From Methanoregula boonei 6A8 (GTDB lineage: Archaea > Halobacteriota > Methanomicrobia > Methanomicrobiales > Methanospirillaceae), in NCBI RefSeq assembly GCF_000017625.1, contig NC_009712.1:2294001-2358000 (forward strand): 64,000 nt of DNA, written 5' to 3'. The stretch's first letter is position 1, and each line of letters starts with the position of its first letter. A program made the translations under genes and the position numbers. Of the stretch, positions 8,183-13,140 are shown one piece after another. Under the pieces are notes generated by a model. The model did not search any database. It had not been told where the DNA came from and saw only the letters and a program-made list of their open reading frames with translations.

Positions 8183-8363
8183 CATGTGGCAGTGGCATTT
8201 TTCCCATGCAGCGGGGTAATATCCGGGCAGCGGGACAGGGAACAACACAAACTTGCAGACGGGAGTTACAAGAAACATAATAAAGAATCCTTGCCAAACA
8301 CTAGTAACTGCTGGCGGCAGACCGGGCAAGACCGGCCCGCCGCTTAGAAAAAATGAGGGCCCT

Positions 8364-9017
8364 ATGACGACATTTTCCAGGACATTGGGGAACGCAAAGA
8401 AGAGATTTTCCGTATTTCTCAAGCGGTTTTTCAAGAAGAAGCGGACCCGGATCGGGATCTACGGCCCGCCGAATGCCGGGAAGACTACGCTCGCAAACCG
8501 GATTGCCCGGGACTGGACGGGTGACGCAGTCGGACCGGTGAGCGAGATTCCACACGAAACCCGGCGGGCACGCAGGCGTGAGGATATTGTGATCTCAGGG
8601 GCAAACGGTCACACCGTGACGATTGATATTGTCGACACCCCCGGGGTCACAACCAAGATCGATTACCACGAGTTCCTCGAGTTTGGAATGGAAAAGGATG
8701 AGGCGATCATCCGCGCCCGTGAGGCCACCGAAGGTGTCGCCGAGGCCATGCACTGGCTGCGCGAGGATATCGATGGCGTGATCTACATGCTGGATTCAAC
8801 CCTTGATCCCTTCATGCAGGTCAATATCATGATGATCGGGATCATCGAGAGTCGTAAGCTGCCGGTAATAATCGTGGCAAACAAGATCGACCTGCCCGAC
8901 GCGGCTCCGGCCCGGATCCGCAGCGCCTTCCCCCAGCACCCGGTGGTTGCCATCTCGGGGCTTGAGGGCAGGAACACCGAAGAGCTGTACGAGAAGATGA
9001 TCCAGAACTTCGCTTAA
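8364..9017 (+). CDS. Era/Der-like archaeal GTPase
   Basis: 217-residue P-loop GTPase from the ATG at 8364 (GAGGG just upstream; the longer frame lacks a ribosome site). G1 is GPPNAGKT at 34-41, G3 is DTPG at 91-94 and G4 is NKID at 173-176; a highly basic N-terminal tail (residues 10-30) may bind RNA or membrane. Related proteins are widely conserved in Euryarchaeota beside the zinc-ribbon protein encoded next, 15 bases downstream, suggesting a functional pair. The exact role is unknown; ribosome- or RNA-related work is inferred from the Era relationship. Confidence 0.85.
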   Translation: MTTFSRTLGNAKKRFSVFLKRFFKKKRTRIGIYGPPNAGKTTLANRIARDWTGDAVGPVSEIPHETRRARRREDIVISGANGHTVTIDIVDTPGVTTKIDYHEFLEFGMEKDEAIIRAREATEGVAEAMHWLREDIDGVIYMLDSTLDPFMQVNIMMIGIIESRKLPVIIVANKIDLPDAAPARIRSAFPQHPVVAISGLEGRNTEELYEKMIQNFA

Positions 9018-9542: not shown

Positions 9543-10280
9543 TCACCTCGTCACAAGCTCATCCCTTATCCCTTCATAGGAGGCCGGCAAGGACAGCTCC
9601 CGGAAAAACCGGTCCGTAAATGAGAGGCTTGTCGTTACCGCCCATTCAGCGCATCCGTGACCGAGGCACCGGTCCGGGAAGAAGGGAAGGTTTTTTGCCG
9701 CAAGCGGATTCTCGGCAAACCGGTGTTTTAAGAGCTGTTCGAACTTTTCCGCGTGAGTCTCCGCAGGGACACCGGCCTGCCGTCCTGAATGGATGATCAC
9801 CCACTCGCGCCGGTAGTGCATCAGGTAGTTGCGGATCATAATCAGGTCCTTTATCCCGGAAAAGTCCGGATCGTCGTCAGGAAAGAGATGCATATTCCCG
9901 ATCTCAAGAACCTTCTGGTACTTGGCCGGCAGGGGAGTGCGATCGAAATAATTCTCGTTACTCCATTTCTCTCCCACGGCACGCAGCAGCGCCTCGCCTT
10001 TTTTGTCCGCAAAGAAGAACGCATCGTCAGCGGCGTCCGACCAGAGCTCGTTGATACTGGATTCCAGGAAGGCAACCGTGGAGAAGAGTGCGTTGAGGAC
10101 AAATGCCTCGTGCCGGAGCCGCTCTTCCGCGGAGAGCGTGCCGGTGGACGCATAGCCGGATTCAATTGCCCACCCAAACCGGCAGAAGAGGGCAGCGGAC
10201 TGGATGTATTTGACCGAGAAACAGTCCCGGATACGGATATCGCACTCGTCGCCCGGCAGTTCGGGATGCAGCCCATCCAT
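9543..10280 (-). CDS. Hypothetical protein with a HEPN-like RX4H motif
   Basis: 245 residues, all-alpha in appearance, not assigned to a named family. Around residues 70-80 there is FLESSINELW, and at 150-155 RNYLMH, an exact R-X4-H. These match the arrangement seen in HEPN-type proteins, where Arg and His form an RNase site. If it is a HEPN protein it could be a toxin-like ribonuclease, but no partner nucleotidyltransferase is adjacent and catalysis is not shown. Monocistronic and divergent from rps15. A TATA-like AATATTAA lies about 105 bases upstream. Confidence 0.6.
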   Translation of the reverse strand: MDGLHPELPGDECDIRIRDCFSVKYIQSAALFCRFGWAIESGYASTGTLSAEERLRHEAFVLNALFSTVAFLESSINELWSDAADDAFFFADKKGEALLRAVGEKWSNENYFDRTPLPAKYQKVLEIGNMHLFPDDDPDFSGIKDLIMIRNYLMHYRREWVIIHSGRQAGVPAETHAEKFEQLLKHRFAENPLAAKNLPFFPDRCLGHGCAEWAVTTSLSFTDRFFRELSLPASYEGIRDELVTR

Positions 10281-10436
10281 AGTACTTCTTCCGTTGGTCG
10301 CGACCCTGTAAAAAGGGTACGTGCGATGGAGGAAATGCCCGCTGATCTCTTACAAAAGCGGCACCGGGACACAGATACCATTAATATTTGCAGCCGTCAA
10401 TAGTAGGGTAGCACTTTCTTATAAGGTGCTGACAGA

Positions 10437-10533
10437 TGTAAGTCCGACGTGCCTTTCTTGGCACGGCCTCAAAACTTAGGCTTTGGGATTACAGAGAGTC
10501 AGTAAGCATATACTGCACTTTTCTGGACTTACA
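10437..10533 (+). promoter_or_regulatory. Predicted four-helix RNA element upstream of rps15
   Basis: A perfect 9-bp closing helix (TGTAAGTCC 10437-10445 with GGACTTACA 10525-10533) encloses three hairpins: CGTGCC/GGCACG (448-453/460-465 of the 10-kb block), CTCAAA/TTTGGG (468-473/482-487, one G-U) and AGTCAGTA with TACTGCACT (497-504/511-519, one bulged C). The element ends 27 bases before the rps15 ATG. TATA-like boxes at 10381-10390 and 10419-10427 could drive it. A third, CATATAC at about 10507, would start transcription inside it, so its inclusion in the mRNA is uncertain. It may be an S15 autoregulatory leader or an independent small RNA. Confidence 0.5.
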
Positions 10534-10560
10534 CTATAGTTCGTTACCGGAGGTATAAGC

Positions 10561-11019
10561 ATGGCACGAATGCACGCCAGAAGAAGAGGAAAGTCAAGCT
10601 CGGTGCGGCCGGCGCGTAATGAAGCGCCCGCGTGGTCCAACACGGACAAGGCAGCAATCGAGAAGCTCATCGTCGATCTCCGCAAGGAAGGCACATCGGC
10701 CAGCATGATTGGCCTTGTCCTGCGGGACCGCTACGGTGTCCCCGATGTCAAGATGGTCACCGGAAAAAGTATCGGTGACATCTTAACGGAGAACAAGGTC
10801 AGTTCCGAGATCCCCGAGGATCTCCGCGACCTGATGGTCAAGGCACTGGGCCTGCGCAAGCACCTGGGCGAGAACCCCAAGGACCTGCACAACAAGAGGC
10901 AGCTCCACCTTGTCGAGGCAAAGATCCGCCGCCTCGTGAAGTACTACATCGGCACCAGGAAACTGCCCGCAGGCTTCACCTACAAGCCGGAGAACGCCGA
11001 GATCCTGCTGTCCAGGTAA
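10561..11019 (+). CDS. rps15: Ribosomal protein S15 (uS15)
   Basis: 152-residue archaeal uS15 with an S13/S15 N-terminal extension (MARMHARRRGKSSS) and the conserved core around residues 85-135. The ATG is preceded by ACCGGAGGTATAAGC, a good Shine-Dalgarno 8 bases upstream. It heads the rps15-recJ-pcc1-rps3ae cluster that is conserved in many Euryarchaeota. The leader may be structured (see the preceding element), which would suit autoregulation as known in bacteria. Confidence 0.97.
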   Translation: MARMHARRRGKSSSVRPARNEAPAWSNTDKAAIEKLIVDLRKEGTSASMIGLVLRDRYGVPDVKMVTGKSIGDILTENKVSSEIPEDLRDLMVKALGLRKHLGENPKDLHNKRQLHLVEAKIRRLVKYYIGTRKLPAGFTYKPENAEILLSR

Positions 11020-11046: not shown

Positions 11047-12264
11047 ATGTCGCTTGAAGAATCCGCTAAAGTCGTCGCAGAGCAGATCCGGCGCCAGCAG
11101 TTCGTAGAGGTATACGCCCACCACGACGCTGATGGCATTGCAGCAGGGGCTATCCTCTGCCACGCGATGCTCCGGGCCGGGATCCGGTTCAGGCTCCGGA
11201 TCTGTGCGGATATCTCAGCGGCGGAGCTCTCGCACGATGCGGTCTCGCTCCTGTGCGACCTGGGATCCGGTAAAGAAGACCTGCCCCCGGAGACGATCGT
11301 GGTTGATCACCACATCCCGCTCTTTGGCGGGCAGTTCCACGCAAACCCGCGCCTGGAAAAGATCGATGGCGACCGGGAGCTCTCTGCGGCCGGCATGGCC
11401 TACATCGTTGCTCAGGAAATGGGGGACAACCGGGACCTTGCCGGTCTCGTAATCCCCGGCATCATCGGCGATGGCCAGGCATTTGCCGGCAGGAACCTCG
11501 CGATCTTCAACGAAGGTGTGGCAAACGGGATTATTGTCCCGGACAAGGGGATAACCCTTGCCGGCCGTGACATGGCGGAACGGTGGCTGCTTGCCACCCG
11601 TCCTTATCTCCCCGGGATCAGCGGCAGCGATTCAGCCGTTGCTGACCTGCTCGCTTCCACTCAGGAAGACAACGGGTTGAAACCGGATGTTCTGATCAGC
11701 CTTGCGGTGCTCACTTCTGTCCCGGAGGCGTCGGCAGAGGGTCTTATGCTGCTCTACGGCGACACCATGCACCTCCAGCGCGAGGTTATCGAGGACGCCC
11801 ACGCGCTTACCGCTGTCATCGATGCCTGCGGCAAATCCGGCTGCGGCGACCTTGCGGTGGCGCTCTGCCTGCGTTCATCTGTGGAGATCACAGAGGCTTG
11901 GGAGGTGACCCGTAAGCACCACCTCGCGGTGATTGCAGCGCTTGGCGAGGTCCGTCCGGTACAGGAGGGTTGTGCAGTCTACGAATGCGGCAATGCCACC
12001 CTTTCAAGCGACGTTGCCGATGTGCTTGCCCGGGACCGGGTGCAGCAGGCACCGGTGCTCGTGTACGCACGAACAGGGGAGGAGTGCCGGATATCGACCC
12101 GCCTACCCCATGGCACCACTGCCAATCTCGGGCTGCTTGTCCGGGAACTCGCCGCGGCTTGCGGTGGGAACGGCGGGGGCCACCACAGCCGGGCAGGGGC
12201 CACGATCCCCTGCAAGCGACTCGATGCCTTCGTGAAGGGATGGCAGGAGGGGCTTGCTGCATGA
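11047..12264 (+). CDS. DHH-family RecJ-like single-strand exonuclease (GAN-type)
   Basis: 405 residues. DHH-superfamily motifs are intact: HHDADG at 25-30, VVDHH at 85-89, and the DHHA1 motif GGGHHSRAGA near 377. Archaeal proteins of this type, encoded next to rps15, include the GINS-associated nuclease that degrades single-stranded DNA at replication forks. Whether this copy binds GINS cannot be read from the sequence. It overlaps pcc1 by 4 bases (ATGA). Confidence 0.85.
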   Translation: MSLEESAKVVAEQIRRQQFVEVYAHHDADGIAAGAILCHAMLRAGIRFRLRICADISAAELSHDAVSLLCDLGSGKEDLPPETIVVDHHIPLFGGQFHANPRLEKIDGDRELSAAGMAYIVAQEMGDNRDLAGLVIPGIIGDGQAFAGRNLAIFNEGVANGIIVPDKGITLAGRDMAERWLLATRPYLPGISGSDSAVADLLASTQEDNGLKPDVLISLAVLTSVPEASAEGLMLLYGDTMHLQREVIEDAHALTAVIDACGKSGCGDLAVALCLRSSVEITEAWEVTRKHHLAVIAALGEVRPVQEGCAVYECGNATLSSDVADVLARDRVQQAPVLVYARTGEECRISTRLPHGTTANLGLLVRELAAACGGNGGGHHSRAGATIPCKRLDAFVKGWQEGLAA

Positions 12265-12530
12265 AGCAGGTACGGGGCCTTATTGCCACCACCCACGTGG
12301 ATGCACCCGGCGTAGCAGCATCCCTTGCGCCCGACAACCTCACAGGCATGACCACCACCGCAGACGGGAACCTGGTCACAACCGTGATAGAAAGCACACA
12401 GCTGCGATCGGTTATCGCATCCGTGGACGATTACCTTATGAATCTGGCAATTGCGGATGAGGCAATAACACTCCCGCATGAGAACCAAGGAAAATCCCAA
12501 CCAAAGGGAATAAAAAAAGTACAGAGTTGA
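12261..12530 (+). CDS. pcc1: KEOPS complex subunit Pcc1
   Basis: 89 residues from the ATG overlapping the recJ stop. Its size and its VTTVIESTQLRSVIASVDDY region fit Pcc1, the small dimeric subunit that binds Kae1 in the KEOPS complex making the t6A37 modification of tRNA. Its place between recJ and rps3ae is the usual archaeal one. The frame is also open well upstream inside recJ, but the coupled ATG is the sensible start. Confidence 0.8.
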   Translation: MKQVRGLIATTHVDAPGVAASLAPDNLTGMTTTADGNLVTTVIESTQLRSVIASVDDYLMNLAIADEAITLPHENQGKSQPKGIKKVQS

Positions 12531-12534
12531 TACC

Positions 12535-13140
12535 ATGGCAAAGAAAAAACAGGCTGGAAGAAGAGTTGAAGGCTGGAAAGCCAAGAGCTGGTTCAAGGTG
12601 TACACCCCCGACAACCTCGGCAAGGCGTACATCGGCGACACCATCGCAAGCGAAGTTGAGACCGTCAAGGGCCGTATCATGCAGGCCACGCTTGGCGAGA
12701 TCACCAACGACTACGCAAAGCAGCATATCAAGATGAGCTTCAAGATCGCAGAGGTCACCGGTGATGCGGCCTACACCGAGTTCGTCGGCCACGAAGTGAC
12801 CAGGGACTACCTCAGGTCGCTTGTCAAGCGCCGCAGCTCCCGTATTGACTGCCACGTGCAGGTCGTTACCAAGGACAACAAGAAGGTCAGGCTCACGATC
12901 AGCTGTTATACCTTCGCACGGGCAAACATTGCCCAGGAGCACGCACTCCGGAACGCGATCACGGCCGGCCTTGTTGCACAGGCACAGGCATGGGACCTTA
13001 ATACCCTCGTCAACGGCGTTGTCTCGGGCGAGATCTCCAAGGATCTCTTCAAGCTCGTAAAGACCCTCTACCCCACCCGACGGGTCGAGATCATCAAATC
13101 CAAGGTCGAGCAGGTCGCAGCACCGGTCTCCACCGCATAA
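12535..13140 (+). CDS. rps3ae: Ribosomal protein eS1 (S3ae)
   Basis: 201-residue archaeal/eukaryotic S1e, starting MAKKKQAGRRVEGWKAKSWF with the family motif TPDNLGKAYIGDTIASEVE. Four bases after pcc1 and last in the cluster. It is followed by a T9 tract (13146-13154), a likely transcription terminator. Confidence 0.96.
   Translation: MAKKKQAGRRVEGWKAKSWFKVYTPDNLGKAYIGDTIASEVETVKGRIMQATLGEITNDYAKQHIKMSFKIAEVTGDAAYTEFVGHEVTRDYLRSLVKRRSSRIDCHVQVVTKDNKKVRLTISCYTFARANIAQEHALRNAITAGLVAQAQAWDLNTLVNGVVSGEISKDLFKLVKTLYPTRRVEIIKSKVEQVAAPVSTA

Follow-up and report, generated by a model that had tools for sequence, protein, structure and literature searches.

A displacing strand downstream of the S15-Methanomicrobia ribosomal leader suggests a co-transcriptional switch in front of rps15 in Methanoregula boonei

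The ribosomal protein gene rps15 of Methanoregula boonei 6A8 is preceded by a strongly folded RNA, and this locus raises the question of what the structure is, whether it belongs to the rps15 transcript and by which mechanism it could act on the gene. Coordinates refer to the window, i.e., the whole 64,000-nucleotide stretch of DNA that was analysed. The reading favoured here, to which we assign a probability of roughly 0.6 based on sequence comparison and fold modelling, is that the rps15 leader would be an S15 autoregulatory element with a co-transcriptional strand-displacement switch. The signals and genes of the operon are the following:

10381 to 10386, + strand: TATA-like box TTAATA, predicted to act as promoter for the rps15 operon, 29-30 nt upstream of P0, the first leader hairpin
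10549 to 10554, + strand: Shine-Dalgarno-like GGAGGU, outside both competing helices of the leader
10561 to 11019, + strand: rps15, presumably the regulated gene, coding for 30S ribosomal protein S15 (NF006331, E 6.2e-65)
11047 to 12264, + strand: RecJ-like DHH/DHHA1 protein, downstream operon gene (Pfam and NCBIfam profiles)
12535 to 13140, + strand: rps3ae, 30S ribosomal protein S3ae (NF003142, PF01015)

Translation of rps15 starts at the AUG at 10561, and the closest named relatives of the S15 protein are from Methanoregula. The RecJ-like protein scored above the cut-off of Pfam DHHA1 and below those of DHH and of the NCBIfam profile RecJ_archaeal. The order rps15, RecJ-like gene, rps3ae matches the rpsO/recJ/rps3ae gene set reported for the S15-Methanomicrobia leader family in the main text of its description (PMC7247131). 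A gene for the KEOPS subunit Pcc1 (12264-12530, + strand) lies between the recJ-like gene and rps3ae. On the 5' side of the leader are a divergent 245-aa ORF (9543-10280, - strand) without Pfam or NCBIfam match, a member of the OapC (origin-associated protein) family (PF09845; 9033-9449, + strand) and, adjoining the latter, a small GTPase-domain protein (8253-9017). In 83 of 117 relatives a TTA[TA][TAG]A box lies 29-30 nt 5' of the first leader hairpin and, based on this fixed distance, transcription of the operon is predicted to start at about 10406-10411, so that the leader should be part of the transcript. The concern, expressed in an initial annotation of this DNA, that the structured element might lie outside the transcript is largely answered by this box. 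A TATA-like sequence further downstream was rejected as the true promoter, the conserved upstream box at fixed distance being the better candidate.

The leader belongs to a known family. The interval 10410-10492 is a full-length match to Rfam RF03137, the S15-Methanomicrobia ribosomal leader (model positions 1-74 of 74), with a covariance model score of 74.8 bits against a gathering score of 42.2. This membership bears out the proposal of the initial annotation that an S15-regulatory leader stands in front of rps15, and corrects its remark that no described archaeal counterpart was known to it, RF03137 being present here and RF03143 in Halobacteria. Both motifs were published by Eckert and Weinberg (2020; PMC7247131), in whose main text they are argued to mimic the rRNA junction. 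The element begins at about 10410, upstream of the 10437 annotated initially, and is composed of these parts:

10410 to 10492, + strand: S15-Methanomicrobia ribosomal leader RF03137
10410 to 10431, + strand: P0, the first leader hairpin, AGCAC...GUGCU, belonging to RF03137
10438 to 10445, + strand: shared strand GUAAGUCC, 5' strand of P1 (the S15-site form) and also of a second helix, helix B
10448 to 10465, + strand: P2 hairpin of the three-way junction (local fold and RF03137), with covarying pairs
10466 to 10481, + strand: P3 hairpin of the three-way junction (local fold and RF03137)
10485 to 10492, + strand: P1 3' strand GGGAUUAC, partner of 10438-10445 in the rRNA-like form

In RF03137, GUAAGUCC pairs with GGGAUUAC to form P1, which closes a three-way junction, in a register that is uncertain: positions 5 and 6 of the shared strand are unpaired in Rfam, but paired, with a bulge, in the fold of the alignment. 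The P1 pairs are all kept in 72 aligned sequences. The organism's own 16S rRNA contains GGCUAGGGACC and GGCUCCGACAG, and the leader GGCUUUGGGAUU and AAGUCCGACGU, with UCCGAC and GGCU..GGGA common to both RNAs. The 16S stretch that holds these segments is presumably the h20-h21-h22 junction, the S15 site. Judged from these matches, the P1 form is the rRNA-like form, its three-way junction mimicking the 16S rRNA site of S15, because the leader strands that match 16S are those of P1. Of 232 genomes from the class Methanomicrobia, 209 have a match to RF03137 (132 of 135 among those of good quality), and outside this class no match was seen in 391 genomes of the phylum; likewise, UCCGAC was absent from the rps15 upstream regions examined in other classes of the phylum. 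We know of no archaeal S15 leader for which S15 binding together with lowered expression has been demonstrated.

The Rfam model ends at 10492, and the leader continues with three further elements:

10496 to 10520, + strand: terminator-like hairpin hp4, found in nearly every genus
10519 to 10522, + strand: U-run UUUU after hp4, whose first U may pair at the hp4 base
10525 to 10533, + strand: displacing arm GGACUUACA, 3' strand of helix B, with co-variation at positions 2 and 5

The perfect 9-bp long-range helix reported in the initial annotation was confirmed. In this helix B, UGUAAGUCC (10437-10445) pairs with GGACUUACA (10525-10533) around three hairpins (10448-10465, 10466-10481 and 10496-10520), ending 27 bases before the rps15 AUG, and the 97-nt interval folds at -37.7 kcal/mol, where dinucleotide-shuffled sequences reach -21.1 +/- 3.4 (z -4.9) and 0 of 200 are as stable. 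What had been missed is that the 5' strand of helix B has a second conserved partner at 10485-10492. As GUAAGUCC finds its complement inside the arm, GGACUUAC (10525-10532), and P1 uses the same 5' strand (10438-10445), P1 and helix B are mutually exclusive. Helix B is absent from the RF03137 model and from the main text of PMC7247131, and it is a class-wide, so far apparently undescribed part of the known leader family; "undescribed" refers here to that main text, and the supplementary alignments could mention the downstream strand.

The conservation of helix B was evaluated in 120 loci, one per genome, from 37 genera and six families, nearly all of which keep a downstream complement of GUAAGUCC. 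The distance from the arm to the AUG ranges from 13 to 341 nt (below 60 nt in 98 of the 120 loci, mostly 13-26), with two families placing the arm 65-341 nt from the AUG and keeping the remaining architecture. In a 72-sequence alignment 90.6% of the helix B cells were paired, vs 26-44% for slid versions, and both sides had changed in 17 cells. When 3' arms were swapped among the 37 genera, pairing averaged -13.8 kcal/mol for own arms vs -11.35 +/- 0.38 for swapped ones, and 0 of 5000 permutations were as good; the same test with one genome per family (six rows) was not significant, and the outer-flank pairs alone gave weak co-adaptation (p 0.009-0.13). Compensatory changes, for which the initial annotation had suggested looking in relatives, do exist, and independent events are few. 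At position 5 of the shared strand, eight aligned sequences have A, with U opposite in seven, the eighth misaligned and C in none; the P1 partner strand is invariant opposite these variants, and the signal at position 5 can therefore be ascribed only to helix B. At position 2, C occurs in three aligned sequences, all from one genus, which carry G in both partner strands. On the tree this amounts to three changes of position 5 and a single clade with the position 2 variant, too few events for significance in a sign test. Bulged or shifted variants of helix B in eight loci still pair. Altogether, both competing helices are conserved and have one strand in common, and the leader very probably has two competing conserved folds. 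In four loci (L046 in genome G142, L031, L035 and L115) the S15 junction is kept and the displacing arm is lost or degenerate.

The order in which the two helices may form was approached by predicting minimum-energy folds of growing transcripts. P1 was obtained for RNAs ending at 10492-10528 and helix B from 10530 on, and in the full leader the helix B form (-51.6 kcal/mol) is more stable than a forced P1 (-44.7) by about 7 kcal/mol. Among the relatives, full leaders were predicted to adopt helix B in 112 of 120 cases and P1 in one; for leaders cut just before the arm, P1 was predicted in only 73 of 120. Both forms, as predicted, contain the hairpin hp4; the label of a classical attenuator, in which a competing helix breaks the terminator hairpin, was dropped, since helix B leaves hp4 intact.

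According to the sequence and these predictions, GUAAGUCC on the emerging RNA meets GGGAUUAC first and forms the rRNA-like three-way junction; hp4 and the U-run follow, and the second complement, GGACUUAC, then captures GUAAGUCC into the more stable helix B. On this basis a mechanism can be hypothesized in which S15 in excess over rRNA would bind the nascent junction and hold P1, so that helix B would be blocked and expression would fall, the hairpin and U-run most likely leading to termination or to cleavage by FttA/aCPSF1. Without S15, helix B would form, the S15 site would be erased and rps15 would be expressed. Such erasure would confine sensing to the time of transcription and would keep the finished mRNA from soaking up S15. 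That S15 chooses between P1 and helix B in this manner seems somewhat better than an even bet; that it would hold P1 and lower expression is suggested by r-leader biology.

Regarding the output step, a hairpin of the GAGUC...GACUCUUUU kind lies between P1 and the arm in nearly every genus (hp4 z < -1 in 33 of 37 genus representatives), and 108 of 120 loci have a run of at least four U ahead of the arm, separated from it by 0-3 nt in 100 of them, so that a terminator-like hairpin with U-run stands before rps15. The archaeal termination nuclease aCPSF1 (FttA) binds U4 tracts and cleaves downstream (PMC8716108), and poly-U stretches after the leader are mentioned as possible termination signals in the main text of PMC7247131. 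Based on the frequent U-run, the variable distance to the AUG, the position of the Shine-Dalgarno outside the helices and the U4 preference of aCPSF1/FttA, termination is proposed as the output, tentatively and at slightly less than even odds. The main difficulty for this proposal is the position of the arm 3' of the U-run, which fits a factor-dependent or S15-triggered stop but leaves the arm unable to influence one that is purely intrinsic; a second is that helix B does not open hp4. Long spacing and retention of the U-run were not significantly associated (p 0.69). In five loci, from one family and one genus, the long spacers between arm and rps15 contain a conserved hairpin-rich CCGC...GCGG...GGACAGUC, and in three of these hp4 is enlarged by an extra hairpin.

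The same two folds could alternatively act on translation, the S15-bound junction obstructing or trapping the small subunit close to the start codon, with the helix B form as the translatable one. This is a serious rival, although we consider it unlikely. It would agree with the control of translation by E. coli S15, which stabilises one of two leader folds, with an arm less than 60 nt from the AUG in most loci, with the short spacing of all leaders (about 12 of 120) that have no run of four U before the arm and, in Halobacteria, with an arm within about 16 nt of the AUG in nearly all sampled leaders. However, the two families with an arm 65-341 nt from the AUG keep the architecture otherwise, the Shine-Dalgarno is outside both competing helices and the hairpin with its U-run would be left without a role. 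Occlusion of the Shine-Dalgarno by either fold was rejected, given its position outside both helices and an arm-AUG distance of 13-341 nt.

The initial annotation had described a four-helix junction-like RNA closed by the 9-bp helix. Binding of S15 by this four-way junction itself is very improbable: although it is conserved and the minimum-energy fold of the free RNA is the helix B form, helix B excludes GGGAUUAC, which the rRNA-like junction uses, and so abolishes P1, whose strands match 16S and vary least of all parts of the leader; moreover, RF03137 reaches its 74.8 bits without helix B, both the enclosed distance and the pairing are variable, and some junction-keeping leaders such as L046 have lost the arm. 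Hardly credible either is a non-regulatory helix B, be it a hairpin serving stability or processing at the mature 5' end or a side effect of a 3' strand conserved on other grounds, for the scarcity of independent compensatory events and the conservation of strand and context as sequence, which would fit it, are opposed by the own-vs-swapped arm test (0 of 5000), by the Halobacteria arm, which targets the same P1 strand with another sequence, and by the bulged or shifted variants that keep the pairing.

The strand-displacement switch proposed here for Methanomicrobia can be compared with the leader of Halobacteria, where RF03143 was found in 114 of 116 genomes, including Haloferax volcanii. In these leaders a long alternative helix joins a 5' end of the form GGGAA..GCAC..CCGCA with UGCGG..GUGC.GUUCC just before the AUG; it competes with P1, lies outside the Rfam model and was present in 32 of 33 genera sampled. 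The GGGAA at the RF03143 5' end, conserved yet unpaired in the Rfam model, is explained by this helix. The observation comes from a set of 57 rps15 upstream regions of Halobacteria. Own arms paired better than swapped ones (p 0.01), and the predicted fold was P1 in all 55 truncated leaders vs helix B in 36 and P1 in 17 full ones. The Halobacteria leaders carry no U-run at that place and their arm abuts the AUG, thus the output may differ from that in Methanomicrobia. As a possible, if rather doubtful, generalization, the archaeal S15 leaders of the two classes could have in common a protein-sensing co-transcriptional switch with a short-lived rRNA-mimicking site erased by a displacing strand, its feedback being sensed while the RNA is made and, for Methanomicrobia, settled at a hairpin and U-run for FttA-type termination; if true, this would be an archaeal protein-controlled attenuator with a riboswitch-like expression platform.

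To our knowledge, little is known on ligand-controlled transcription termination in archaea, and literature searches turned up no experimental follow-up on the archaeal S15 leader. The 2020 prediction of the S15-binding half came with no detailed mechanism, and the second helix together with the hairpin and U-run supply a testable one, for whose Halobacteria version H. volcanii, with its RF03143 leader, is a tractable model. If true, it would show how archaea could couple ribosomal-protein feedback to transcription.

Compared with known systems, RF03137 as described (Eckert and Weinberg, 2020) is the same element in the same operon as 10410-10492, without the terminator-like hairpin and the displacing arm. 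RF03143 (S15-Halobacteria, placed with RF03137 in clan CL00121) has a related junction, rRNA mimicry and a conserved strand competing for the P1 5' strand, and differs in its outer stem, a longer alternative helix (about 15 bp), the lack of a U-run and an arm beside the AUG. Helix B probably turns what was a static r-leader into a two-state switch. In E. coli rpsO, S15 presumably selects one of two leader folds in translational control; the leader in the window resembles it in the two folds and the proposed choice by S15, whereas rpsO relies on a pseudoknot, ribosome trapping at translation and an unrelated structure. In strand-displacement riboswitches one helix of the initially formed ligand-binding fold is taken apart by a later strand unless ligand is bound; here, in contrast, the presumed ligand is a protein and the displacing strand comes after the U-run and is not part of the terminator. 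In the archaeal L7Ae k-turn leader a ribosomal protein also binds the leader of its own mRNA, which refolds on binding, though the RNA there is a K-turn stem-loop under translational control with no competing downstream strand in the portion of that report considered here (PMC6298567).
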